Source: Lachnospiraceae bacterium (lineage in GTDB: Bacteria > Bacillota > Clostridia > Lachnospirales > Lachnospiraceae). From it: DNA of 32,784 bases. Below the pieces are notes generated by a model. It made no database searches and was not told the origin of the DNA. It saw nothing but the letters and a program-made list of their open reading frames with translations. Within the stretch, counting starts at the first letter, position 1. Each line of letters opens with the position of its first letter. The stretch spans positions 19,280-52,063 of the forward strand of contig JAUNNN010000011.1 in NCBI GenBank assembly GCA_030531435.1. The letters run 5' to 3'. A program made the translations under genes and the position numbers. This document shows, one piece after another, positions 13,304 through 25,757 of the stretch.

Positions 13304-13315
13304 TTAAGATCTTAA
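13304..13315. repeat. Perfect 12-bp palindrome at the pheT-queA junction
   Basis: TTAAGATCTTAA spans the pheT stop codon and lies 2 nt before the queA start. It occupies the place where a queA ribosome binding site would be expected, so it supports coupling rather than independent initiation. Confidence 0.5.
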
Positions 13316-15724
13316 TGATATGCCAAGCTTGTTATCAAGATTCTTTAATATCTTCTTAACATATCCTTCTACCATTTCATCTGTAAACTCTTCATTCTGA
13401 GGAGTAAATACTACAGAAAATGCCATGCTTCTTTTATTTGCGCCAAGCTGAATGCCCTCATATACATCGAAAAGCTTAACATCTGTAACATACTTACATG
13501 CTTCTTTAATTCCATTTTCAATTGAAGCACATGTAATGTTTTTATCAACAACAAATGCAAAGTCTCTCTTTTCAATAGCGAACTTAGGAAGTGGCATAAA
13601 CTTCTGTTCTTTATCGTAATACTTAGAAATAAGACGGATATCAAGCTCTAAAACAAAGCTTGGAACTCTCATATCAAGTTCATCCATTATTTCATAGCTT
13701 ACTTTACCAAGATATCCAACCTTTTCTCCATCACAGATAATATCAGCTGTCTGGTATGGGTGAAGGAATGTTTTCTCTGATGGCTCGTATGTAAACTCGA
13801 GGTCAAATGTATCAGCTACAATCTTTGCAAAGCCTTTAAGTGTATAGAAGCTTTCATTTTCGCCAAATACGCCAACACAAAGTGTTTCTCTTTCATCAGG
13901 ATACTCTGTAAGTGGTAAATCCTTTGGAATAAAGATATTACCAAGCTCGTAAATTTTACCTTCAAGTAAATCTCTCTTCTGGTTTCTAGCCATTGCTCTA
14001 ATCATCTGTGGAGCAAGTGTTGTTCTCATAAGAGATAAATCAGCATTAATTGGATTAATAAGCTTAATAGCCTTTCTTTCCATTGCATCTTCAGGAAGAT
14101 TTAATAAATCAAGGTCTGATGGTGAGAAGAATGAATAGTGAATTCCTTCATAAGCACCAGCACCACATAATGCTCTCTTAAGCTTAAGCTCTGACATCTG
14201 ACGAAGATCAAATCCACCCATTGTAACCTGAGCTGTTGGCATAAATGTTGGAATAACATGTTCATATCCATACATTCTAATAACTTCTTCAGCTACATCT
14301 GGATAGCTTTCCATATCTTCTCTGTAAGCTGGAACCTGAATAGTTAATTCATCTCCATTTACAGATGGATTAAAGTCAAGTGACTTAAGAATTCTAATAA
14401 TATCTTCATTTGGAACAGTAATTCCAAGTACTTTATTAACTCTTTCAATTGAAACCTTCATTTCCTTTGGTTCAATTGAATTACCTGTTGAAACTTCAAC
14501 ATGTGTAGATGAAACTTTACCGCAGCCTAACTCTTCAATAAGATGAAGTGCTCTCTTCATAGCCATAACTGTTGTATATTCATATACACCCTTTGCATAC
14601 ATTGCTGATGAATCAGATGCTTGACCAAGTGCTCTTGAACTCTTACGAATGTTATCACGCATGAATTTTGCTGCTTCAAACATTACTTCTGTAGTTGTAT
14701 CAAGAATTTCTGAATTAAGACCACCCATAATACCTGCAAGAGCAACTGGTTTCTTACCATCACAAATTACAAGGTTCTGGTCATTTAACTCAAATTCTTT
14801 TTCATCAAGTGTAACAATCTTTTCACCGTTATTTGCACGACGAACATTTATCATATTGCCTTCAATGTATGATGAATCAAAAGCATGCATTGGCTGACCA
14901 AGCTCTGTAAGAACGTAGTTTGTAATATCAACAACATTGCTAATAGAACCAATACCAACAAGAGCAAGTCTTCTCTTCATCCAGAGTGGTGATTCACCAA
15001 TTTTTACATCGTGTACATAGTGTGCAATATATCTTGGACAAAGCTCAGGAGCATCAACAGTAACTGTAAATCCATCCTTTTTAACTTCATCCTCTGTATA
15101 TGATAAATCAAGTGGCTTAATTTCTTTATTAAGTACTGCAGCAACTTCTCTTGCAATACCGTATACACTCTGACAATCAGGTCTATTTGCTGTAATAGCA
15201 ATATCAAAAATCCAATCATCAAGGCCTAAAATAGGCTTAACATCTGCGCCTACTTCTGCATCATCAGGAAGAACTAATAATCCGTTGTATGATGCTCCTG
15301 GGAATAAATCATCAGATACACCAAGCTCAACACCTGAACAAAGCATACCTTCTGAATCGTAACCACGAAGTTTTCCCTTTTCAATTGTCATAAGGCCTTC
15401 AACAGTTACATGATCTTTTCCAGTCATAATAACCTGAGCGCCAACAAGAGCTAATGGGAACTTTCCGCCTGCTTTAACATTATCTGCTCCACAGCAAACC
15501 TGGAATGTACCATGGCTTCCTGCATCAACAGTACAAACATGAAGATGTGTCTCTGGAATAGGTTCACAAGTCTTAACTAAACCAACAACAACATCATGAA
15601 TGTCTTCTCCAACCTGTTTTAACTCTTCAACTTCAAAACCACATGAGAAAAGCTTGTCCTGTAATTCCTGTGGTGTACAGTCTATATCTACATATTCTTT
15701 TAACCAGCTTAATGGTGCTAACAT
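13304..15724 (-). CDS. pheT: Phenylalanyl-tRNA synthetase beta subunit
   Basis: This 806-residue subunit pairs with PheS as an alpha2-beta2 enzyme. Residues about 44-150 form the EMAP-like tRNA-binding domain ([18 protein letters not shown]). The B3/B4 editing region follows (about 210-380), then the B5 domain (about 405-480), a degenerate catalytic-like core, and the C-terminal anticodon-binding FDX-ACB domain (about 712-805, ending LGISLRS). Length is usual. GGAGG is 8 nt before the ATG, which lies 22 nt after pheS. Confidence 0.97.
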
Positions 15725-15746
15725 TTTCTAATCCTCCAAATACTAC

Positions 15747-16769
15747 TTATTCGTGAAGCTGCTTTAATACTCTCATATCTGATTCAAAGAGCATTTTGAT
15801 ATTATTAATTCCGTACTTAAGCATTGCAATACGCTCAATACCAATACCAAATGCAAATCCAGAATACTCGTTAGTATCAATACCACAGCCCTCAAGGACT
15901 TTATTATTTACAACACCAGCACCAAGAACTTCAATCCAGCCAGTACCTTTACAAAGCTTACATCCACATCCACCACACTGGAAGCAGCTAACATCTACTT
16001 CAACAGATGGCTCTGTAAATGGGAAGTATGATGGTCTAAGTCTTGTCTTTGTCTCTTTACCAAAGATTTTCTTAACGAACTCATCTAACATACCCTTTAA
16101 ATCACAAAGAGAAATTCCTTTATCAACAACAAGTCCTTCCATCTGTGAAAACATTGGTGAGTGAGTTGCATCATCATCTGAACGAAAAACCTTACCAGGT
16201 GAAATAACCTTAATAGGTGGTTTCTTTGCTTCCATAACATGAATCTGTCCAGCAGATGTCTGTGTACGAAGAAGAAATTCAGGTGATAAATAGAATGTAT
16301 CCTGCATATCTCTTGCTGGATGATCATCTGGTGTATTTAATGCAGTAAAGTTATAGTAATCAGTCTCAATTTCTGTTCCTTCGAAGACTTCAAATCCCAT
16401 AGAACCAAAAATATCAACAAGTTCATTTTTAACTAATGTAATTGGATGAAGCGAACCAGGTTCAGCTACAACTTCAGGCATAGTTACATCAATTTTTTCA
16501 GCCTCATATCTAAGCTTAAGTGCCTCTTTTTCAAGCTTCTTAAGCTGAGCCTCAAGCTTTGTTTCAATAGCATCTCTTGCTTCATTAACCCACTGACCAA
16601 CCTTTGGTCTGTCTTCAGCTGCTACATCCTTCATACCACGTAAAACTGCAGTAAGTTCGCCCTTTTTACCAAGGACAACATTTCTTACTTCATTAAGCGC
16701 TTCAAGATTGGCAGCATTTTCAATTTGTGAAATTGCTTTTTCTCTGATTTCTTTTAATTTGTTCTGCAT
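15747..16769 (-). CDS. pheS: Phenylalanyl-tRNA synthetase alpha subunit
   Basis: This 340-residue class II catalytic subunit has an N-terminal coiled coil (about 1-85) that contacts tRNA. Motif 2-type sequence and the Phe-specific [12 protein letters not shown] lie near residues 145-160, followed by [10 protein letters not shown] and the motif 3 region [10 protein letters not shown] near the C-terminus. Upstream are only 76 bases before the yihY gene. They hold no T-box-like leader and no convincing promoter, so pheS is either read through from yihY or has a weak promoter. AAGGAT is 7-8 nt before ATG. Confidence 0.97.
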
Positions 16770-16845
16770 AATACTATCCTTTTATATTAAAGATTATTTT
16801 AAACATTTTTACAGGAAATATATGTCTTTCCCATATAAACCCTAA

Positions 16846-17712
16846 CTAATTTATTTTATCTTTATTTACCTTTGTTGACAAGTAATAATTGACCTGTGCG
16901 CCTATAAAAAATATATACATACACGAATATAGCCATAGTAAAACAATTATTACAAAAGAAAGTGAACCATACATGCTAAATGCATTGAAATTATTTATAT
17001 AAATATTAAATATTGTTGAGAATGCATACCATATACATGCAACAAATAATGCTCCAGGTATTTCTGATTTTATTTTAATTTTATCGTTTGGCAAGGCAAC
17101 GAACATATATAGTGTTGCAATAAATGTAACGAGCAAAATAACAAGACCCTTCAAACTAAATGCTGTATGAAGCAATATATGTTTATCTGCTAAAATATCC
17201 GGATGAATTTTTGATGTAATGTAATTAAAAAGACTTGATGAAAATATACTCAAAATAAACATTACAACCATCATAACTATGAGAATAAGTGTAAAAAACA
17301 CTGCATTTAATCTTAAAATAGCAAAATTTCTTGTCTCAATTACACCATGTATCTCATTTAATCCCTTTTTAATGTACTGAACACCTCTTGCAGATGACCA
17401 GATAGCTGCAATTAATGAAATATAAACTACGGCAGCTGACTCATCTGTCACCTGAAGCATTACATCATAGGCAATTCCATCAAGTTTATCAGGCAAAAAA
17501 TCAAGCACAATATTATATACAAAATCATCAGTAATTGGTGTATATGGAATTATTGCCATAAATAAAATAATAAATGGAATTATAGACAAAAAAATAAAGA
17601 ATGCTGTACTTGATGAATACACATCTAAATGATTCTTTTTCATCAAGATGGAAAAATCATTGCATTCTTTATATATTAAATTAAATGCATTTTTTAATTT
17701 CTTCATAAGCAT
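16846..17712 (-). CDS. YihY/BrkB-family inner membrane protein
   Basis: This integral membrane protein of about 288 residues belongs to the YihY (formerly RNase BN/BrkB) family. About six transmembrane helices are visible, with family landmarks SSTAFFIFLSIIPFIILF near the N-terminus, WSSARGVQYIKKGLN in the middle and the C-terminal SMYGSLSFVIIVLLWLYSCMYIFFIGAQ. The transported or sensed substrate is unknown for the family. The start is uncertain: GTG at 17721, ATG at 17712 and ATG at 17706 are all in frame and none has a strong SD. I chose 17712. The gene follows a structured RNA (about 17760-17928), which could be its 5' leader. Confidence 0.85.
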   Translation of the reverse strand: MLMKKLKNAFNLIYKECNDFSILMKKNHLDVYSSSTAFFIFLSIIPFIILFMAIIPYTPITDDFVYNIVLDFLPDKLDGIAYDVMLQVTDESAAVVYISLIAAIWSSARGVQYIKKGLNEIHGVIETRNFAILRLNAVFFTLILIVMMVVMFILSIFSSSLFNYITSKIHPDILADKHILLHTAFSLKGLVILLVTFIATLYMFVALPNDKIKIKSEIPGALFVACIWYAFSTIFNIYINNFNAFSMYGSLSFVIIVLLWLYSCMYIFFIGAQVNYYLSTKVNKDKIN

Positions 17713-17759
17713 TACAAACACGCTTCTAAATTCTAACGTGTGTTTAAAATAAAAACACC

Positions 17760-17928
17760 CCGAAATGTTCTTGTTTTTTGACTCCTAGAAATATATCTAG
17801 GTGGGCAACCGCAACATAGTCTCTGTCTTCCACTGCGTAATGATGGCCTGACATCAAAAATGAAATATAGGAATCCCGTTTAAAGAACTGTAGGTTCAAA
17901 AACACAAGAATTTAAACATCCGAGGATG
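17760..17928 (-). ncRNA. ssrS: Structured RNA resembling 6S RNA
   Basis: Read on the minus strand, the element opens with a small hairpin (ACATC-CUCG-GAUGU near the predicted transcription start). A 14-bp closing helix with one bulge follows (17896-17910 with 17768-17781). Inside are an unpaired 5' strand containing ACGGGAUUCCUAUAUUUCAU, a terminal arm in which UUUCAUU can pair with AGUGGAA around a UGAUG/CAUCA hairpin, and a 3' strand with a CCUAGA/UCUAGG hairpin. A rod with a central bubble and a small hairpin on the 3' strand is the 6S RNA plan, and AUAUUUCAU also occurs in the E. coli bubble. Length is about 170 nt. A dedicated promoter precedes it. The 3' end is not defined by a clear terminator. 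Alternatively it is a leader of yihY. Confidence 0.6.
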
Positions 17929-17933
17929 TATTA

Positions 17934-17962
17934 ATTATATAGTAAATAAGCCTTTAAATCAA
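17934..17962 (-). promoter_or_regulatory. Promoter of the structured RNA
   Basis: TTGATT (17962-17957), a 17-nt spacer and a perfect TATAAT (17939-17934) lie on the minus strand immediately after the eam stop codon. The predicted start is near 17927-17929, at the base of the first hairpin. Confidence 0.75.
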
Positions 17963-17964
17963 TA

Positions 17965-19185
17965 TTAATAGTCGATTCTGACCTCTTTATTCTCCCATGT
18001 ATGGAGTTTAACATACATATCGTTACTTTCCTCAATATATGAAGGAAGAAGTGGTATTTTTCCAAGTCCTTCAGGTGCATTTAAAATATACTGAGGTATT
18101 GCCATACCTGATGTATGTCCTCTTAAATATTCAATGATCTTTAAGCCTTCATTAACCTTGATTTCAAAGTGTTTCGTACCCTGAACCTGCTTTGGATGGA
18201 AAATATAATATGGCTTAACTCTTGCTTTTAATAAGCCCTCATTAAGTAACTGCACAATATATTTATCATTATTTATTCCACGAAGAAATACCATCTGATT
18301 TCCAAGAGGGATTCCTGCAAATGCCAGCTTCTCACACGCCGCTACAGCTTCCTTTGTAAGCTCATATGGATGATCAAACTGAATATTAATAAATAATGGA
18401 TGATACTTTTTTAACATATCACAGAGATTATCTGTAATTCTCTGTGGCATTGTAGCTGGAAGTCTTGTACCTAGTCTTATTATTTCAACATGAGGAATTG
18501 CTCTTACTTTACTGATGATATTTTCAAGTAATTCATCTGGTAACATTAACGGATCACCACCAGTAATAAGAACATCTCTTATTTCCTTTGTTTCTTTAAT
18601 GTAGTTAATTGCTGCCTCGATATTCTCTTCAGACTCAATTCTATCGCATTCACCAATACGTCTTCTTCTCTGACAGTGTCTGCAAAATGCCGCACATGAG
18701 CTTGTTACATTAATAATAAGACGGTTGGGATAACGTCTTGTAATACATGGAGCAGGATTTGTATACTCCTCATTCATTGGGTCAAGTTCACCCTGATCAT
18801 TAAGTTCTGCCTCTGTAGGTAAACCTAATAAATTAATTGGATCAGACATATTTGAATAATCCATAAGAGATAAATAATAAGGAGTTACTGCCCATCTATA
18901 TTTTTTAGATACATCTTCAAACATTTTTATCTGTGATTCAGATAAATTTATAAACTTTGTTAAAAGATTAACTGAGCTAATTCTATTTTTAAGCTGCCAG
19001 TGCCAATCATTCCATTCTTCTTCTGTGGCATTAAAATAAGACATAAGCTCATTTTTATGCCAGCTTGTCATAGAAGCTCTTTCTTCTTTTTCTTCAATGA
19101 ATTTTTCTTTAAACTCTAAAAAGTCTTTTATGCAGTCATTAAGTTCTTCTGCACGTTTTAATGAAATTTCTCTCTTATTATCCAT
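17965..19185 (-). CDS. eam: Glutamate 2,3-aminomutase (radical SAM, PLP-dependent)
   Basis: This 406-residue member of the KamA family carries the radical SAM cluster motif C164-xxx-C168-xx-C171, the PLP-binding lysine K376 (GLGKIPL), and R173 in CQRRRR. In lysine 2,3-aminomutase, Asp293 and Asp330 bind the side-chain amine of lysine. By direct alignment the same positions here are K332 (HPKQV) and N369 (ILNAP), the substitutions published for glutamate 2,3-aminomutase. The predicted reaction is therefore L-glutamate to beta-glutamate, a compatible solute in some anaerobes. The start is 15 nt after the dltD-like stop with a weak SD, so it reads as the last gene of the tyrS-dlt-like operon. 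Beta-glutamate might serve as an osmolyte or as substrate for that system. Known family, inferred context. Confidence 0.85.
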   Translation of the reverse strand: MDNKREISLKRAEELNDCIKDFLEFKEKFIEEKEERASMTSWHKNELMSYFNATEEEWNDWHWQLKNRISSVNLLTKFINLSESQIKMFEDVSKKYRWAVTPYYLSLMDYSNMSDPINLLGLPTEAELNDQGELDPMNEEYTNPAPCITRRYPNRLIINVTSSCAAFCRHCQRRRRIGECDRIESEENIEAAINYIKETKEIRDVLITGGDPLMLPDELLENIISKVRAIPHVEIIRLGTRLPATMPQRITDNLCDMLKKYHPLFINIQFDHPYELTKEAVAACEKLAFAGIPLGNQMVFLRGINNDKYIVQLLNEGLLKARVKPYYIFHPKQVQGTKHFEIKVNEGLKIIEYLRGHTSGMAIPQYILNAPEGLGKIPLLPSYIEESNDMYVKLHTWENKEVRIDY

Positions 19186-19200
19186 AATAAATACCCATCT

Positions 19201-20229
19201 TTATTTCTCATTCATGAGAGTATTATATCTTTCAAGTTTTTTATCAAATACAGCTTTAATACTGTTATCTTCTCTTACATCAGAGACTGAATAATTATTT
19301 ACAATGTATTCACCAAGTACAGTAGAAAACTTCTCAGCACCATAGCTATTCATATGCTGTCTGTCAGTTAAATCTTCTAACTCTAGTCCAATACTATCAT
19401 AATCTTCGATAAATGATTTATACTTAATGCCATTTAAATCAGCAAAATCTGACATTTGTTTATCAAGGTCTTTATTCCAGTTACATTCATAGCTTGGCAT
19501 TTTAATTAATGCAAGCTGAACATCATTTTCCTTGCATAAATCAGCTAATTTCTGAAGATATTCCATGTTTTCGTCACATGCAATAACGCCTTCATCAAGA
19601 TGATATGGATCATAACTTACAGCTCCATCAAACAAATCAAACTGAATAAGCTGACCATTTGCTGTAACTGTTGGTTTGTAAAATAAATATTTTAGGTCCT
19701 CACTCTTTAAGTCATTCCATCTTGAATGAAATCTTAAAATTGGGAACATATAATCAGTAAAATATTCTGTTTCATCCATCATTGCCTTTATAGCATTAAC
19801 TTTAGAACTGTTCCACTTCATTCCATCTAAGGATTTTCTTGAAGCTCCTTCATCAACGTAGTCAGCTGCTTCATAAATGAAGCCTACATCAGCAACGATA
19901 AGCTTTGGCTTATTTCTTTTAATTGTATCCTCTGCAATATAATATGATAGAGCTATCGTCTGTGAAGAATTAGACCTATCATAAGCTGATATTCCATATT
20001 CCCTATACAAAACCATTGGCGAAATACCTGCATGTACTAGAGATGATCCTGTAAAAATCACATCAATAGGAGTTTTTTCTCTGTAAAACTCTGCTGTAAT
20101 TCTGCCATCAGCATTTTCTTCAATATATTTTGGCATAAATAACAGATTAAGACATACAAATAATGCAATAGCCACACATACTTTAAAAATAATCACTATT
20201 AAATTTTTAACAGTACTATTATTTTTCAT
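19201..20229 (-). CDS. DltD-like SGNH-fold extracytoplasmic protein
   Basis: This 342-residue protein has one N-terminal membrane helix (about 10-31), and the rest is predicted to face outside. Its SGNH/DltD-like marks are T60-G61-S62-S63 (nucleophile region) and D289-RQ-H292 (the DxxH block). It lacks recognisable DltD signature blocks beyond these and is shorter than typical DltD (about 380-420 residues). In Dlt systems DltD works with the MBOAT protein in the last transfer of the activated group onto the acceptor. The ATG directly abuts the stop of the MBOAT gene (TAAATG), so their translation is coupled. Confidence 0.75.
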   Translation of the reverse strand: MKNNSTVKNLIVIIFKVCVAIALFVCLNLLFMPKYIEENADGRITAEFYREKTPIDVIFTGSSLVHAGISPMVLYREYGISAYDRSNSSQTIALSYYIAEDTIKRNKPKLIVADVGFIYEAADYVDEGASRKSLDGMKWNSSKVNAIKAMMDETEYFTDYMFPILRFHSRWNDLKSEDLKYLFYKPTVTANGQLIQFDLFDGAVSYDPYHLDEGVIACDENMEYLQKLADLCKENDVQLALIKMPSYECNWNKDLDKQMSDFADLNGIKYKSFIEDYDSIGLELEDLTDRQHMNSYGAEKFSTVLGEYIVNNYSVSDVREDNSIKAVFDKKLERYNTLMNEK

Positions 20230-21825
20230 TTAGAAATTTCCATAAATGAAGCTAGAAGCCTCATATCCCAGTCCATATGAACCAAATACAATTACAACAG
20301 TAAACAAAGCTGAGACAAGAACCCACTGAACAAAGGTATTCTTTTCAAGAACCCTTTTCCTTACAGGGCCACGTCTTGCCATTAAATCAGCAATAAATAA
20401 TGCAATAATTGCAATTACTACAACAATAAAATCATCATGACTTATTGAAAGGTTTTCATAAACAGATGCCATGTTAAAGTTATTCCATGGTCTGAATATC
20501 ATTGAAAAGCATCTAAAAGCATCCTTTGCATCTTTTGAAATGTCAAATAATCTAAGGAAACTCATAAGCCAGAACGTTTTAACTATTCTATAGCTTTTAA
20601 ACCAAAATCCATTAACCTTTATATTAAATTTATTTATAAGCTTTTCTGATACTGGCTCAAATTCTGTACCTAAAATGATAAGCACAAAGTTCATAAGTCC
20701 CCAAACAACAAATCTCGACTCAGAACCATGCCACATACCAGTTGTAGTCCATACAATGAGAAGAGGCAAATAAAGTGGTGCTCTTTTACCAATTTCATCG
20801 CCAAAATGCTTTTTAAGCCATTTTGAAATATTTAAGAAAGTTTTACTAATTGATAATGGATAAAAAATATAGTCTTTAAACCATGTACCAAGTGTAATGT
20901 GCCATCTTCTCCAATATTCAGCGATACTCTTTGAGAAAAATGGTCTCTCAAAGTTTTCAGCCACTTTAATATCAAGCATTTCAGCCACACCAAGTGCAAC
21001 ATCTATACCACCTGAGAAATCACAGTAAATCTGCATTGAATACATGAATACTGCAAGTAATATGTAAAATCCATCATATCCATAATCTTTAAAATTCATA
21101 ACACTTGATACAAATGGGCTTACACGTTCAGCAATAACAAGCTTTTTAAATAAACCAAATAGAATTCTAATAAAGCCAGATTTTATATTGTAAATATTAA
21201 ATGTTTTCTCTTTATATAATTCAGGAGCTAACTCATTAAATCTTGAAATAGGTCCCTGAATTATCTGTGGAAAAAAGGAAACATATAATGCATACTTAAA
21301 TATATTTTCCTCAGCTTCATATTTTCCGTTATAAACATCAATAATGTAGCCTACTGACTGGAAGGTATAAAAAGAAATACCAAGTGGCATAAGTATAGTT
21401 ACTGGATTTACAAAATCAACTATACCAAACCACATCAGTCTGTAATAATTAAAGTATGCAATTCCCCAGTTAATATACTTGAGATATGCAAGAATACCTA
21501 TATTTATAAAAACACACAATAAAAGCAGCCACCTTTGTTTTTTCTTAAAGGTAGCTTTTATTTGTTTCTTTTCTTCTTTTGAAAGATCTTTATTCGCTTT
21601 TATATAATCCTTTTGCGCTTTAACTGACTTTGATATGAACTTAGCACACAAAAATACAGTTATTGTCGTAACTAAAAGATAAATAATAAGCTTCTCACTA
21701 CATATAAAATAAAATACATAGCTTGCTACAAGTAAAACTATCCACTGATATTTCTTTGGAACAATATAGAAAAGACTTACTACTATAGTTACAAATAACG
21801 CAAAAGCAAGACTAACAAAGGACAT
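20230..21825 (-). CDS. DltB-like MBOAT-family membrane acyltransferase
   Basis: This 531-residue polytopic membrane protein belongs to the MBOAT family (DltB/AlgI/PatA group), with about ten hydrophobic segments. Family blocks are QGPISRFNEL near 190-199, YCDFSGGIDVALG near 267-279, EYWRRWHITLGTWFKDYIFY near 303-322 with H309, and TTGMWHG near 361-367 with the invariant H366. In Dlt pathways this protein takes the group from the carrier protein and passes it across the membrane. A long charged cytoplasmic loop (about 68-97) is rich in Lys. The start is 2 nt after the carrier gene, with GAGGAG inside that gene's end. Size is larger than classical DltB (about 400) and closer to AlgI-type members. 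Confidence 0.88.
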   Translation of the reverse strand: MSFVSLAFALFVTIVVSLFYIVPKKYQWIVLLVASYVFYFICSEKLIIYLLVTTITVFLCAKFISKSVKAQKDYIKANKDLSKEEKKQIKATFKKKQRWLLLLCVFINIGILAYLKYINWGIAYFNYYRLMWFGIVDFVNPVTILMPLGISFYTFQSVGYIIDVYNGKYEAEENIFKYALYVSFFPQIIQGPISRFNELAPELYKEKTFNIYNIKSGFIRILFGLFKKLVIAERVSPFVSSVMNFKDYGYDGFYILLAVFMYSMQIYCDFSGGIDVALGVAEMLDIKVAENFERPFFSKSIAEYWRRWHITLGTWFKDYIFYPLSISKTFLNISKWLKKHFGDEIGKRAPLYLPLLIVWTTTGMWHGSESRFVVWGLMNFVLIILGTEFEPVSEKLINKFNIKVNGFWFKSYRIVKTFWLMSFLRLFDISKDAKDAFRCFSMIFRPWNNFNMASVYENLSISHDDFIVVVIAIIALFIADLMARRGPVRKRVLEKNTFVQWVLVSALFTVVIVFGSYGLGYEASSFIYGNF

Positions 21826-21827
21826 TA

Positions 21828-22058
21828 TTACTCCTCTTCAAGTCTCTTTATAAGATTCATAATTGCATCAACAGAGTTGAAATTTTCAGGAATCATTGTT
21901 TCAGCTGTGATTTCAACATCGAAATTATCAATAAGTTCGCTAACAACAGAAACAACATCGAATGAATCAAAAATTCTGTTATCAATGAGCTTATCTTCTA
22001 CTTCATAATCAACTTCTGGATGAACTGACTGTAAAATTTCAATAATCTCTTCTCTCAT
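21828..22058 (-). CDS. DltC-like acyl/aminoacyl carrier protein
   Basis: This 76-residue acidic protein has the four-helix carrier fold and a phosphopantetheine attachment serine at S32 in IFDSFDVV. Replacement of the usual DSL by DSF resembles DltC (typically DSF/DSL) more than the fatty-acid ACP. It should hold the amino acid activated by the adjacent adenylation enzyme as a thioester. GAGG lies 6 nt before the ATG. It lies 9 nt after the adenylation gene and 2 nt before the MBOAT gene. This is the tight order seen in dlt operons, though here C precedes B. Confidence 0.88.
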   Translation of the reverse strand: MREEIIEILQSVHPEVDYEVEDKLIDNRIFDSFDVVSVVSELIDNFDVEITAETMIPENFNSVDAIMNLIKRLEEE

Positions 22059-22067
22059 AACTTACCT

Positions 22068-23579
22068 CTATAAACAATTTTCTTTTAAATACTTTCTATC
22101 TACCTTTCCATTTGCATTCATTGGAAGCTTATCCATCTTCTTGAATACATTTGGAATCATATATCTCTGAAGCTTCTTTTTAAGCGCCTCTAAAACATCC
22201 TCATCGCCTTTAACTTCAGATTCATAGAAAAGAACAATTTTCTGTTTCTTTTCATCAAATGCACAACATGCATTTTTTATATCAGCAATGGACATAACGG
22301 CTGTTTCAATTTCACCAAGCTCAATTCTATGGCCCATATGCTTAATTTGGAAATCTTTACGAGAAACAAAAACAAATTCTCCACGCTCATTATATTTAGC
22401 AAGATCACCAGTTCTATATATCTTCTCTGGATAATATGGATTTAATGGGTTCTGAGTAAATACTTCATTAGTTTTCTCAGGAGCATTGTAATATCCAAGT
22501 GCAAGGCATGAACCCTTAACACATATTTCTCCAATTGTATCAGCTCTTGTTATAAGCTTATCATCTTCATCAAGCAAGAATACATCTGAATTCTTAAACG
22601 CCTTACCAATTGGAATAGTCTCTGAGTCTTCGTAATCTCTATCTACAATATGGTATGTACACACACCTGTAATTTCTGTTGGTCCATAAATCTGAACAAA
22701 TACAGCCTCTGGATAGTTTTCTTTCCAGTAGTTGTAGCACTTTGTAGGCATTGATTCAGCACCAAATATGATTTTTCTAAGCTTATCTGGCTTAAGTGAC
22801 TTAAAGCCTTTAAACATTGAAATCATTTTCATTGCTGATGGAACCCAACGAATTGTTGTAATGTTATTATCCTGTAAAAATGAAAGCAGCTTCATAGGAA
22901 CTGAGAAATAATCTATTGGAACAATTCCCATAGTTGCACCCATTTTTAATGTACAGTAAATATCAATAAGTGATGCATCAAAGTAAAATGGAGCCTGATT
23001 GGCAATTATGTCATCACTTGTAATATCAACTTCATCACAGAAATGGTCAATGTAATCAACTAAAGATCTATGTGATACAACAACACCCTTTGGAACACCA
23101 GTTGAACCTGATGTATATAAAACATATACAGGGTCAGTATCAAGTGAAGAATCTATTTTATCATTAATAGCTTTATCATCAATTTCTGTATCAATACTCT
23201 GCTCAAATACAAATACATGCTTACAAAATTCCTTGGCAGCATCATAATGAGCTGTATCAGTAATAATTGCCTTAGGTTTAAGATTCTCAACAATAAGATT
23301 AATCCTGTATTCTGGCATTGATATATCAAGAGGTACGTAAAAATTACGACTCATGACTGTGCCAAAGAATGCAGCAAGTACACTAGGTGACTTTTCAAGA
23401 TAAATAAGTACTGGCTGATTTGCACCTGGAAGCTTTTTAATAAGCGTTGATGCAATAGCTTTAGAATCCTTTAAAAGCTTACTATATGTATAGCTTCTAG
23501 TTTCATCAAAATAAGCTGTTTTATCAGGATACTTTTCTGCTGAATCTAATAAATAGTTAATTACATTAATGTTTTTCAT
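22068..23579 (-). CDS. DltA-like amino acid adenylation enzyme, specificity probably not D-alanine
   Basis: This 503-residue stand-alone ANL-family adenylation protein of DltA length has A3 (YTSGSTGVPKG near 155-165), A4 with D201 (FYFDASLIDIY), A5 (YGPTE 298-302), A7 (YRTGD 388-392) and the A10 lysine K492 (NGKVDRK). D201 matches Asp197 of Bacillus cereus DltA, which holds the amino group. The D-Ala-discriminating Cys269 aligns with G273 (IIFGAES), and the equivalent of NRPS position 278 is R244 (TIRWVP). My hand-read pocket is D-A-I-R-I-G-I-G-V-K. The basic residue at 278 recalls the Lys in aspartate-activating domains, so an acidic amino acid is plausible. Its ATG overlaps the tyrS stop (TAATG). 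Confidence 0.82.
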   Translation of the reverse strand: MKNINVINYLLDSAEKYPDKTAYFDETRSYTYSKLLKDSKAIASTLIKKLPGANQPVLIYLEKSPSVLAAFFGTVMSRNFYVPLDISMPEYRINLIVENLKPKAIITDTAHYDAAKEFCKHVFVFEQSIDTEIDDKAINDKIDSSLDTDPVYVLYTSGSTGVPKGVVVSHRSLVDYIDHFCDEVDITSDDIIANQAPFYFDASLIDIYCTLKMGATMGIVPIDYFSVPMKLLSFLQDNNITTIRWVPSAMKMISMFKGFKSLKPDKLRKIIFGAESMPTKCYNYWKENYPEAVFVQIYGPTEITGVCTYHIVDRDYEDSETIPIGKAFKNSDVFLLDEDDKLITRADTIGEICVKGSCLALGYYNAPEKTNEVFTQNPLNPYYPEKIYRTGDLAKYNERGEFVFVSRKDFQIKHMGHRIELGEIETAVMSIADIKNACCAFDEKKQKIVLFYESEVKGDEDVLEALKKKLQRYMIPNVFKKMDKLPMNANGKVDRKYLKENCL

Positions 23580-24799
23580 TAAACAGTAACCTTCTTGTAG
23601 CTCTTTTTACCCTTTTTAATAATTAAACCGTCGCCATCTAAATCTTCTTTTGTATAGCTAGCTTTGATATCATTTACTTTTTCATTATTAACAGAGATAC
23701 CATTCTGCTCAATCTGACGTCTTGCGTCTGAACGAGTTGTGCATAAACCTGATGCAACTAAAAGCTGCATTAAATCAACAACGCCGTCTCTAAAGTTATC
23801 ATCTGAAATAACAACAGCCTCAAGCTGTGATGCATCTCCAGCACCATACATTGCTTTAGAAGCACTTCTAGCCTTTTCTGCTTCTTCATCACCATGAACA
23901 AGCTTTGTAAGCTCATATGCAAGTATATCCTTTGCCTCGTTAAGCTGAGCGCCTTCCCATGTATCCATTCTATCAATTTCTTCTAATGGAAGGAATGTAA
24001 GCATTCTGATACACTTAAGGACATCTGCATCACCTACATTTCTCCAATACTGGTAGAAATCATATGGAGAAGTCTTCTTTGGATCAAGCCATACAGCACC
24101 TGACTGTGTCTTACCCATCTTCTTTCCTTCTGAGTTAAGAAGAAGTGTAATTGTCATTGCGTATGCATCTTTTCCAAGTTTCTTTCTAATAAGTTCTGTA
24201 CCACCAAGCATGTTTGACCACTGATCATCGCCACCAAACTGCATGTTACAGCCATATTTTCTATAGAGCTCAAGGAAATCGTAGCTCTGCATAATCATAT
24301 AGTTAAATTCAAGGAAACTAAGTCCATTTTCCATACGATTAACATAGCAACGAGCTCTTAACATATCATTTACAGAGAAACATGCACCTACTTCTCTTAA
24401 TAAATCTACATAGTTTAAATCAAGAAGCCAGTCTGCATTGTTAACCATCATTGCTTTTCCATCTGAAAAATCAATGAATCTGCTCATCTGTTCTTTAAAA
24501 CAATCAATATTATGCTGGATATCTTCCTTTGTAAGCATCTTTCTCATATCAGATCTTCCAGAAGGATCACCAATCATACCTGTACCACCGCCAAGTAATG
24601 CAATAGGCTTGTTTCCTGCCATCTGAAGACGCTTCATAAGACAAAGTGCCATGAAATGACCAACATGAAGTGAGTCAGCAGTTGGATCAAATCCAATATA
24701 AAATACTGCCTTACCATTATTAATTAAATCTTTAATTTCTTTTTCGTCTGTAACCTGTGCAATTAATCCTCTTGCAACAAGCTCTTCATAAATACCCAT
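23579..24799 (-). CDS. tyrS: Tyrosyl-tRNA synthetase
   Basis: This 406-residue class I synthetase has the HIGH-type motif HVGH at 45-48, the tyrosine-site segment GGDDQWSNMLGG near 189-200, the signature loop KMGKT at 227-231 (the TyrRS form of KMSKS), and a C-terminal S4 RNA-binding domain (about 340-405). It charges tRNA-Tyr in the cytoplasm. AAGGAG is 6-7 nt before the ATG. Unusually for a housekeeping gene, its stop overlaps the next start by one base (TAATG), making it the head of the Dlt-like operon. The 103-base upstream gap is too short for a normal T-box leader and none is visible. Confidence 0.97.
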   Translation of the reverse strand: MGIYEELVARGLIAQVTDEKEIKDLINNGKAVFYIGFDPTADSLHVGHFMALCLMKRLQMAGNKPIALLGGGTGMIGDPSGRSDMRKMLTKEDIQHNIDCFKEQMSRFIDFSDGKAMMVNNADWLLDLNYVDLLREVGACFSVNDMLRARCYVNRMENGLSFLEFNYMIMQSYDFLELYRKYGCNMQFGGDDQWSNMLGGTELIRKKLGKDAYAMTITLLLNSEGKKMGKTQSGAVWLDPKKTSPYDFYQYWRNVGDADVLKCIRMLTFLPLEEIDRMDTWEGAQLNEAKDILAYELTKLVHGDEEAEKARSASKAMYGAGDASQLEAVVISDDNFRDGVVDLMQLLVASGLCTTRSDARRQIEQNGISVNNEKVNDIKASYTKEDLDGDGLIIKKGKKSYKKVTV

Positions 24800-24902: not shown

Positions 24903-25664
24903 TTAGTCATACCAGTGCATTATATCATGATCTGTTGGAACTTTAAGATCGTTCTTTTCAGCGAACTCTCTTGAAGCTTCAATACATGAACGTACGTAGA
25001 AATCATAGTTTGCCTGGTCTTCATTTGTAGCCCAGTTAAGGTTATTGATTTCGTACTCGTATATAGCCTTTAACTCATTAGCTCTAAGCTGCTTTGCTGC
25101 ATAATCAGCCTGTGCATTAACAAGTGCTGTATTTAAAATGTTATAAACATTTGCAAGTCCTGGATTTGACTGATCAACACCTGCAAGCTCTCTTGCTATA
25201 TTATCAACTGAAGCCTTTGCTGAGTTTGCAATATCCTGAGCATTATCAGCATTTAATTTTGCTCTGTCGATTTCAGCTCTGTTTGCCCACTTAACTCTCA
25301 TATCAAGTTCAATCTGCTCTGATCTAGCTCTTGACTTAACAGCATCAATGTATAACTGTGCATTGTATACTAATGAACGAGCATAGTCGAGCTGGTTGTT
25401 CTTGTTAACCATGTTATCGTAAGCAATTGTCTTATCAAGATCTGATGGATTGCTAGCCATTACTAACTGGAAATTCCAATCTGCTAAAGCCTTAGCGTAT
25501 GCACATTTTGCAACTTCTGCCTGTGCTGATGCCATCTGAGCCTCAGCCTTCTGAAGTTCAGCCTCTGTACATGGCATTCCTTCTGCCTTTACTGTAGTTG
25601 GAGCTGTAAATGCAAATACAGCTGACATAGCAATTCCTAATGCAATAATTCCGAGTTTTTTCAT
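24903..25664 (-). CDS. Secreted coiled-coil protein of unknown function
   Basis: This protein of 253 residues starts at the ATG at 25664 (AAGGA about 10 nt upstream). A longer frame begins 13 codons earlier but would put extra residues before an obvious signal peptide. The signal is MKKLG followed by a hydrophobic core and a likely cleavage after VKA (residue 27). The mature part of about 226 residues is almost all helical and rich in Ala, Asn, Lys and Glu. Heptad-like stretches (AELQKAEAQMASAQAEVAK near its start) suggest a coiled coil. It has no cell-wall anchor, repeat or enzyme motif that I recognise. It has its own promoter and a 3' hairpin, so it is probably monocistronic. Likely an extracellular or envelope-associated structural protein, but that is only an inference from composition. 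Confidence 0.8.
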   Translation of the reverse strand: MKKLGIIALGIAMSAVFAFTAPTTVKAEGMPCTEAELQKAEAQMASAQAEVAKCAYAKALADWNFQLVMASNPSDLDKTIAYDNMVNKNNQLDYARSLVYNAQLYIDAVKSRARSEQIELDMRVKWANRAEIDRAKLNADNAQDIANSAKASVDNIARELAGVDQSNPGLANVYNILNTALVNAQADYAAKQLRANELKAIYEYEINNLNWATNEDQANYDFYVRSCIEASREFAEKNDLKVPTDHDIMHWYD

Positions 25665-25701
25665 AACAAAATATTCCTTTCTAATATTTAAATAATCAGC
25701 C

Positions 25702-25757
25702 ATCTATCGTATAGATAACTGCTATCTACATTATTTGCGTAAAGCCTATTTATTATA
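25702..25757 (-). promoter_or_regulatory. Promoter -10 and alternative hairpins before the coiled-coil gene
   Basis: A perfect TATAAT (25757-25752, minus strand) with only a weak ATGATT at -35 precedes a leader of about 80 nt. The leader holds two mutually exclusive inverted repeats that share one arm: 25702-25707 with 25711-25716 (3-nt loop) and 25712-25717 with 25723-25728 (5-nt loop). Confidence 0.45.

Follow-up and report, generated by a model that had tools for sequence, protein, structure and literature searches.

The window analysed here, a 32,784-nt stretch of a Lachnospiraceae genome (contig JAUNNN010000011.1, positions 19,280 to 52,063), carries on its minus strand six head-to-tail open reading frames (ORFs) in the order tyrS, dltA-like, dltC-like, dltB-like, dltD-like and eam, the last encoding a predicted glutamate 2,3-aminomutase (EAM). 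With a probability of about 0.6, we propose from comparative sequence analysis that these genes form an operon of the Dlt-like, aminoacyl-decorating kind, in which beta-glutamate (3-aminoglutarate) made by EAM is placed on an extracellular glycan. The proposal is built on the linkage of EAM to dlt-like genes, on the residues of the aminomutase and on a change in the pocket of the DltA-like adenylating enzyme in a lineage that has no EAM. An initial annotation of this DNA had described six tightly packed genes and had suggested examining whether eam repeatedly follows the dltD-like gene. All six ORFs were found on the minus strand, with tyrS and the dltA-like gene overlapping by 1 nt and subsequent gaps of 9, 2, 0 and 15 nt, and eam does follow repeatedly, within the genus as well as in three others of the family.

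Linkage of EAM to dlt-like genes

EAM orthologues (at least 70% identity) were detected in 29 of the 37 genus genomes, those of G299, G302 and G327 being present as fragments; two genomes had only a distant KamA protein and six had none. A dlt-like gene lies upstream of EAM on the same strand in 28 of the 29, with zero or one to three genes between, and in the 29th (G310, L026) the contig edge falls inside a trpS gene. Full-length DltA orthologues (at least 62% identity) occur in 31 of the 37 genomes. Four genomes have a DltA orthologue without EAM (G193, G301, G308 and G320), neither gene was found in four, and G300 and G332 (L029 and L030) have dltC-, dltB- and dltD-like genes beside EAM.

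Outside the genus, EAM lies downstream of dlt-like genes in three further genera, represented by G052 and G972 (one genus), G241 and G273. A sample of 299 genomes of the family gave EAM-strength matches (591-606 bits) in four, in each case after the dltD-like gene, and an additional genome, G972, has the order dltB-dltD-eam too. EAM matches of at least 608 bits were obtained in 41 other genomes of a class sample (391 genomes); 40 of these 41 loci were fetched, and none has a Dlt-like neighbour within the sequence covered (up to 7 kb per side, some cut by contig ends). We conclude that the linkage between EAM and dlt-like genes is far beyond chance.

The EAMs of the operon group (n = 28, including L026, whose contig retains no dlt gene) form a single clade with a Shimodaira-Hasegawa-like approximate likelihood ratio test (SH-aLRT) support of 100, and their divergence rises with the divergence of the partner DltA-like proteins (Spearman 0.88 over 21 loci). 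Since the operon EAMs form one clade and the divergences correlate, EAM was probably recruited once and thereafter inherited jointly with the dlt-like genes, the pairing having probably arisen in this family.

Assignment of the last gene

The eam gene (17965..19185, minus strand) encodes a radical S-adenosylmethionine (SAM) protein of the KamA family, with C164, C168 and C171, K332, N369 and K376. In a profile search it scored 599.8 bits against TIGR04368 and 413.5 bits against the model for lysine 2,3-aminomutase (LAM). Residues K332 and N369 align with D293 and D330 of the LAM 2a5h, which we take to be the residues holding the lysine side chain. The K/N pair is present in 28/28 EAMs of the operon group and in 39/39 further EAMs from the class; D/D stands in its place in 7/7 LAM-type rows, which are those of 11 fetched loci that passed the length and score filters. 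The radical SAM cysteines and the pyridoxal phosphate (PLP) lysine are identical in all 74 aligned sequences. A lysine 2,3-aminomutase was rejected by score and by the K/N residues, and on family membership and diagnostic residues the last gene is assigned as EAM, which would convert L-glutamate to beta-glutamate.

Two observations concern related genes elsewhere. Eleven matches in the family, at 470-505 bits, were judged lysine-type, and the one such locus scanned (L009) adjoins genes for lysine 5,6-aminomutase alpha and B12 subunits and a BKACE gene. At unlinked EAM loci elsewhere in the class (L100, L101, L103, L107 and L113), the EAM gene is followed by one encoding 469-485 aa, perhaps a transporter, as guessed from its length.

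The pocket of the DltA-like enzyme

The dltA-like gene (22068..23579, minus strand) encodes an adenylating enzyme that scores 345.3 bits, above the cut-off, with the adenylation-domain model TIGR01733 and 321.1 bits with the DltA model TIGR01734, for which the cut-off of 559.85 is not reached. Its predicted structure agrees in fold with adenylation domains and does not reveal the substrate. The ten specificity positions were read in 105 distinct DltA-like proteins, with near-identical copies counted once and three TIGR01734-type proteins (L114-L116) left out. As a control of the mapping, L114, a DltA above the cut-off, reads DLMTLCTVAK, with D197, L198, C269 and V301 at the positions given in PMC11253843.

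The window protein reads DAIRIGIGVK. The pocket DAIR[IV]GIG[VI]K was found in 34 of its 37 orthologues and DAVRIGNGVK in the other three; the 37 reads omit G300, with a DltA fragment, and G332, in which no DltA was found. For 24 of the 34 DAIR-pocket loci, EAM is found downstream at a distance of no more than 11 kb, and the other 10 loci end at most 3.1 kb from the dltA-like gene, with EAM on another contig of the same genome for eight of these. The remaining 68 DltA-like proteins, whose pockets are of other types, have no EAM-like neighbour, whether or not an identity filter is applied. The pocket arginine R244 (GrsA position 278 by alignment; codon 22848..22850, minus strand) is invariant in the window pocket type and probably grips the free carboxylate of beta-glutamate.

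Pocket residues for D-alanine in Bacillus cereus DltA include L198 and C269 (PMC11253843; this and the other papers cited by PMC number are drawn on in excerpt). Their equivalents are A202 and G273 in the window protein and L and C in L114, and D-alanine was rejected as the substrate because the pocket is without the known D-alanine residues. A genuine D-alanyl Dlt operon, which eam would adjoin by chance, would account for the presence of an adenylating enzyme, a carrier, an MBOAT protein and an SGNH-type protein, all of them parts of Dlt. Nevertheless, the low score with the DltA model, the replacement of L198/C269 (B. cereus numbering) by A/G and a linkage kept across four genera make this explanation very improbable.

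A lineage that retains the operon without EAM

In three genomes, G193, G301 and G308 (L055, L058 and L056), tyrS-dltACBD precedes pheST and eam is missing from the locus; nor did a search of the genomes of G193 and G308 (99% complete each) or G301 (70% complete) detect an EAM. This is the only lineage seen that retains the operon without EAM. Its DltA-like proteins form one clade (support 100/100) nested within the EAM type (98/94). Out of 133 columns invariant in 34 EAM-type proteins, the lineage departs at exactly two, I205V and I297N (codons 22965..22967 and 22689..22691 of the window, minus strand). Both changes are identical in all three genomes, and both fall at pocket positions, GrsA 239 and 322. 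As 8 of the 133 invariant columns belong to the pocket, the hypergeometric p for both changes lying there is 0.003.

Nine other, partly overlapping clades served as a control and showed between 0 and 5 such changes, the pocket being affected at most once per clade (by I to V in the G312 clade and by V to I in L006+L135). None of 34 single-row changes was at a pocket position. The DltC-, DltB- and DltD-like proteins of the EAM-less lineage change at 0/22, 1/102 and 0/38 invariant columns, respectively. The pocket change matches the expected look of a substrate switch upon loss of the supplying enzyme, which is suggestive. R244 is retained in this lineage.

Alternatively, the EAM product could be a compatible solute and the operon merely a co-regulated stress cluster. 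Beta-glutamate is a known osmolyte and eam is sometimes placed under Na+ riboswitches (PMC1224877, PMC9337991), and the 40 other EAM loci of the class are without a Dlt-like neighbour. However, an Rfam scan of the window gave no match at gathering level, for which reason riboswitch control of eam was dropped, and a compatible solute leaves unexplained the single-clade recruitment, the joint inheritance and the pocket covariation. We regard this alternative as distinctly improbable.

Carrier and transfer proteins

The 76-aa carrier encoded by the dltC-like gene (21828..22058, minus strand) scores 26.7 bits with the DltC model NF003464 (cut-off 68); its phosphopantetheine serine, S32 in a D31-S32 motif, is invariant in 44 sequences. 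An MBOAT acyltransferase is encoded by the dltB-like gene (20230..21825, minus strand), with 72.1 bits for PF03062 and 136.5 bits for TIGR04091 (cut-off 375), and its histidines H309 and H366 are invariant over 48 sequences. By position and order, the dltD-like gene (19201..20229, minus strand) is predicted to encode a membrane-anchored SGNH-type acyltransferase with G61-S62-S63, D289 and H292. The window copy gave no NCBIfam or Pfam match, the L055 copy matches PF13472 below the cut-off, and D289 and H292 are invariant over 46 sequences. Because the DltA, DltB and DltC models score under their cut-offs, we call the proteins Dlt-like and not Dlt.

Proposed pathway, substrate and acceptor

In the pathway that we propose, EAM would convert cytosolic L-glutamate to beta-glutamate. 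The DltA-like enzyme would then activate one beta-glutamate carboxylate with ATP, the other probably being held by R244, and attach the amino acid through a thioester bond to the carrier's phosphopantetheine. By analogy with the Dlt mechanism, the DltB-like MBOAT and DltD-like SGNH proteins would transfer beta-glutamyl groups through the membrane onto a surface polymer in ester linkage; this polymer is more probably a glycan of the cell surface than a wall teichoic or lipoteichoic acid. The beta-glutamyl ester would add a zwitterion, unlike D-alanine with its net positive charge.

The source genome (2.19 Mb in 95 contigs, 97.45% complete) gave no match to PF00884 (LtaS fold) or PF04464 (TagB/F). 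The same searches, used as a positive control, give matches in Bacillus subtilis and Lactococcus lactis. With no LtaS- or TagB/F-type gene detected, this organism is unlikely to use classical teichoic acid as the acceptor. Glycan-type genes account for 5 of 20 neighbour genes scanned in relatives, namely GT2 (L046), GT11 (L039 and L051), RmlD (L027) and a priming transferase (Bac_transf, L006) that adjoins greA and a ribosomal gene. A surface glycan is weakly indicated as the acceptor.

Several observations weigh against beta-glutamate as the substrate and a glycan as its acceptor. The other 15 of the 20 scanned neighbour genes are without a clear glycan role, and PF00884 matches occur in 20/37 and PF04464 matches in 17/37 genus genomes, several of them weak. 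With 599.8 bits, the window EAM lies below the curated TIGR04368 cut-off of 650. No EAM was found in the genomes of G320 (85% complete) or L134 despite a DAIR pocket, the operon contig stopping in both cases short of the expected place of eam. Loss of EAM in the EAM-less lineage is a single event, and with n = 1 on the tree the covariation is therefore suggestive and not proof. In VinN-type adenylation enzymes for beta-amino acids, the beta13-beta14 loop is one residue shorter and the residues at 236 and 301 are bulkier (PMC11253843). The window protein has a full-length loop, with no gap relative to LgrA between YGPTE and the next strand, and A and G, which are not bulky, at 236 and 301. Membership of the known beta-amino-acid adenylation class was rejected on both hallmarks; if beta-glutamate is loaded, then it would be by another solution. 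Finally, an Asp/Glu racemase gene is frequent in the Dlt-like operons most closely related to this one, and a pocket of this sort may for that reason take an alpha-amino acid.

The machine might accordingly load an ordinary acidic alpha-amino acid (L-/D-glutamate or aspartate), with EAM meeting some other need such as balance of the glutamate pool. The loop length and the small 236/301 residues are typical of alpha-amino-acid enzymes, racemases are present in the related operons, and the EAM-less lineage retains both the operon and R244. We nevertheless consider an alpha-amino acid unlikely, since EAM was never seen without dlt-like genes in the genus and family samples, one contig end excepted, and its loss coincides with changes at just two otherwise invariant DltA positions, each of which belongs to the pocket. 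Beta-glutamate is the substrate that we prefer. The initial annotation had suggested loading of glutamate or beta-glutamate, an idea that gains from the conserved linkage and the covariation of the pocket with EAM presence and loses from the missing beta-amino-acid hallmarks.

As for the acceptor, it is also conceivable, if doubtful, that a teichoic or lipoteichoic acid is used after all, through enzymes missed by Pfam or encoded in the missing part of the genome; this would be compatible with beta-glutamate loading. The homology to Dlt and the PF00884 or PF04464 matches in other genus members favour such an acceptor, but the source genome, 97.45% complete, gave no match where B. subtilis and L. 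lactis did. Glutamate esters occur on actinobacterial teichoic acids; a literature search for them found no useful paper, PMC3196553 being without bearing on the point. The Dlt-type attachment outside the cell that had been envisaged at the outset is modified to the extent that classical teichoic acid is unlikely in this genome, with a surface glycan weakly favoured in its place.

Other branches of the Dlt-like family

The other pocket types have neighbours of their own. A LysA-like PLP decarboxylase gene adjoins 23/28 proteins with the pocket DVK..SLCNK, an Asp/Glu racemase gene adjoins 9/14 with DAKC..LG (TIGR00035 above the cut-off in the two scanned), and a formyltransferase-like gene adjoins 14/23 with DNLFLCLD. 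Among the neighbours of the 37 window-type proteins, neither a LysA-like gene nor a racemase gene was detected. A second Dlt-like set is present in the source genome on contig C22 (L002:138-3032), with the pocket DVKTLSVCNK, a LysA-like PLP decarboxylase and a 76-aa carrier; in L054, a dltB-like gene adjoins the corresponding LysA-type set. The racemase gene lies directly upstream of the DltA-like gene at L138:9207-14444 and also in L137, L140, L147, L167, L170, L171, L175 and L195, and these racemase-linked DAKC operons are candidate D-aspartate or D-glutamate decorating systems. For the pocket DNLFLCLD, the formyltransferase-like gene lies between the DltA- and DltC-like genes at L158:9992-14338 and in L068, and Treponema ruminis (L149) has this pocket type without such a gene.

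It may well be, and we judge the case to be evenly balanced, that the Dlt-like operons of Lachnospiraceae and their neighbours make up one modular family for surface aminoacylation, every pocket type being paired with its own amino-acid-making or -trimming enzyme and the window representing the beta-glutamate branch. In the other branches, an Asp/Glu racemase would probably supply D-aspartate or D-glutamate, a LysA-like enzyme some decarboxylated acid and a formyltransferase-like enzyme some formylated one. For dozens of operons not yet characterised, the pairing of pocket with neighbour leads directly to a testable prediction of the substrate. The EAM-less lineage, with its two pocket differences, could serve as a natural experiment on substrate switching.

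Gene neighbourhood

The tyrS gene (23579..24799, minus strand), encoding a tyrosyl-tRNA synthetase, scores 408.8 bits with TIGR00234 (cut-off 113.8). Its place beside the dlt-like genes is not kept in the three other genera or in several members of this genus, and in L024 it lies 3' of EAM. Since its position is not conserved, tyrS was rejected as a functional part and is best seen as an incidental neighbour, not a stable member of the system. The sole terminator-like site found is inside tyrS, and promoter-like sites did not exceed the number in shuffled sequence.

Aminoacyl-tRNA synthetase genes are abundant at the locus, with tyrS and pheST in the window (13304-24799) and, in relatives, trpS between the dltD-like gene and eam. 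The latter arrangement was identified in L025 and L029; genes of trpS-like length stand at the same place in L027, L030 and L032-L035. Window positions 24903-25703 encode a protein of 266 aa that begins like a signal peptide and matches no family, and a 34% identical protein is encoded upstream of the operon in L024. The nearest named relatives of the source genome are Lachnospiraceae metagenome-assembled genomes, several of rumen origin.

Comparison with known systems

Surface charge and resistance to cationic peptides are governed by Dlt systems, which are regarded as D-alanine machines. The window shares with dltABCD, which D-alanylates teichoic acids, an adenylating enzyme, a stand-alone carrier and MBOAT and SGNH-type proteins in one operon. 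It differs in that its proteins fall under the DltA, DltB and DltC cut-offs, in the pocket (DAIRIGIGVK instead of DLMTLCTVAK), in the gene order A-C-B-D, in the linked EAM and in a genome without an LtaS- or TagB/F-type match. With the known glutamate 2,3-aminomutase, reportedly the work of Ruzicka and Frey (2007, as cited in PMC11284099), the window EAM has in common K332/N369, the radical SAM cysteines and the PLP lysine. In the class, EAM loci outside this group are not associated with Dlt-like genes (0/40), whereas the operon copies are one clade and below the curated cut-off.

A literature search returned no open-licence paper joining beta-glutamate with dltA, or a dlt operon with a beta-amino acid, which does not show absence from print; open-licence papers on dltA with aspartate racemase, or on dltA with Lachnospiraceae exopolysaccharide, were off topic as judged by listing, and PMC11355689 yielded no specificity codes. 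We know of no earlier beta-amino-acid ester on a bacterial surface polymer, and the proposed decoration, if true, would to our knowledge be the first, acting here as a zwitterionic surface tag.

The closest parallel for the supply of the amino acid comes from incednine biosynthesis, in which IdnL4, a likely EAM whose activity was not observed in vitro in the excerpted account, feeds a stand-alone adenylating enzyme and a carrier (IdnL4, IdnL3 and IdnL1; PMC11284099), as EAM would do in the window. In incednine biosynthesis the beta-glutamate first loses a carboxyl group to give 3-aminobutyrate, which is then loaded and becomes part of a polyketide (PMC11284099), whereas the window operon has no decarboxylase and its partners are MBOAT and SGNH-type proteins. 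For the transfer to the envelope, the parallel is AlmE, likewise a DltA-like enzyme that puts another amino acid on the envelope, but with glycine as the amino acid, lipopolysaccharide as the acceptor and no aminomutase described in the excerpt (PMC11253843). If beta-glutamate is what the branch represented by the window loads, and other acids are loaded by its sisters, the Dlt fold would be a general platform for placing chosen amino acids on the surface glycans of gut and rumen bacteria.

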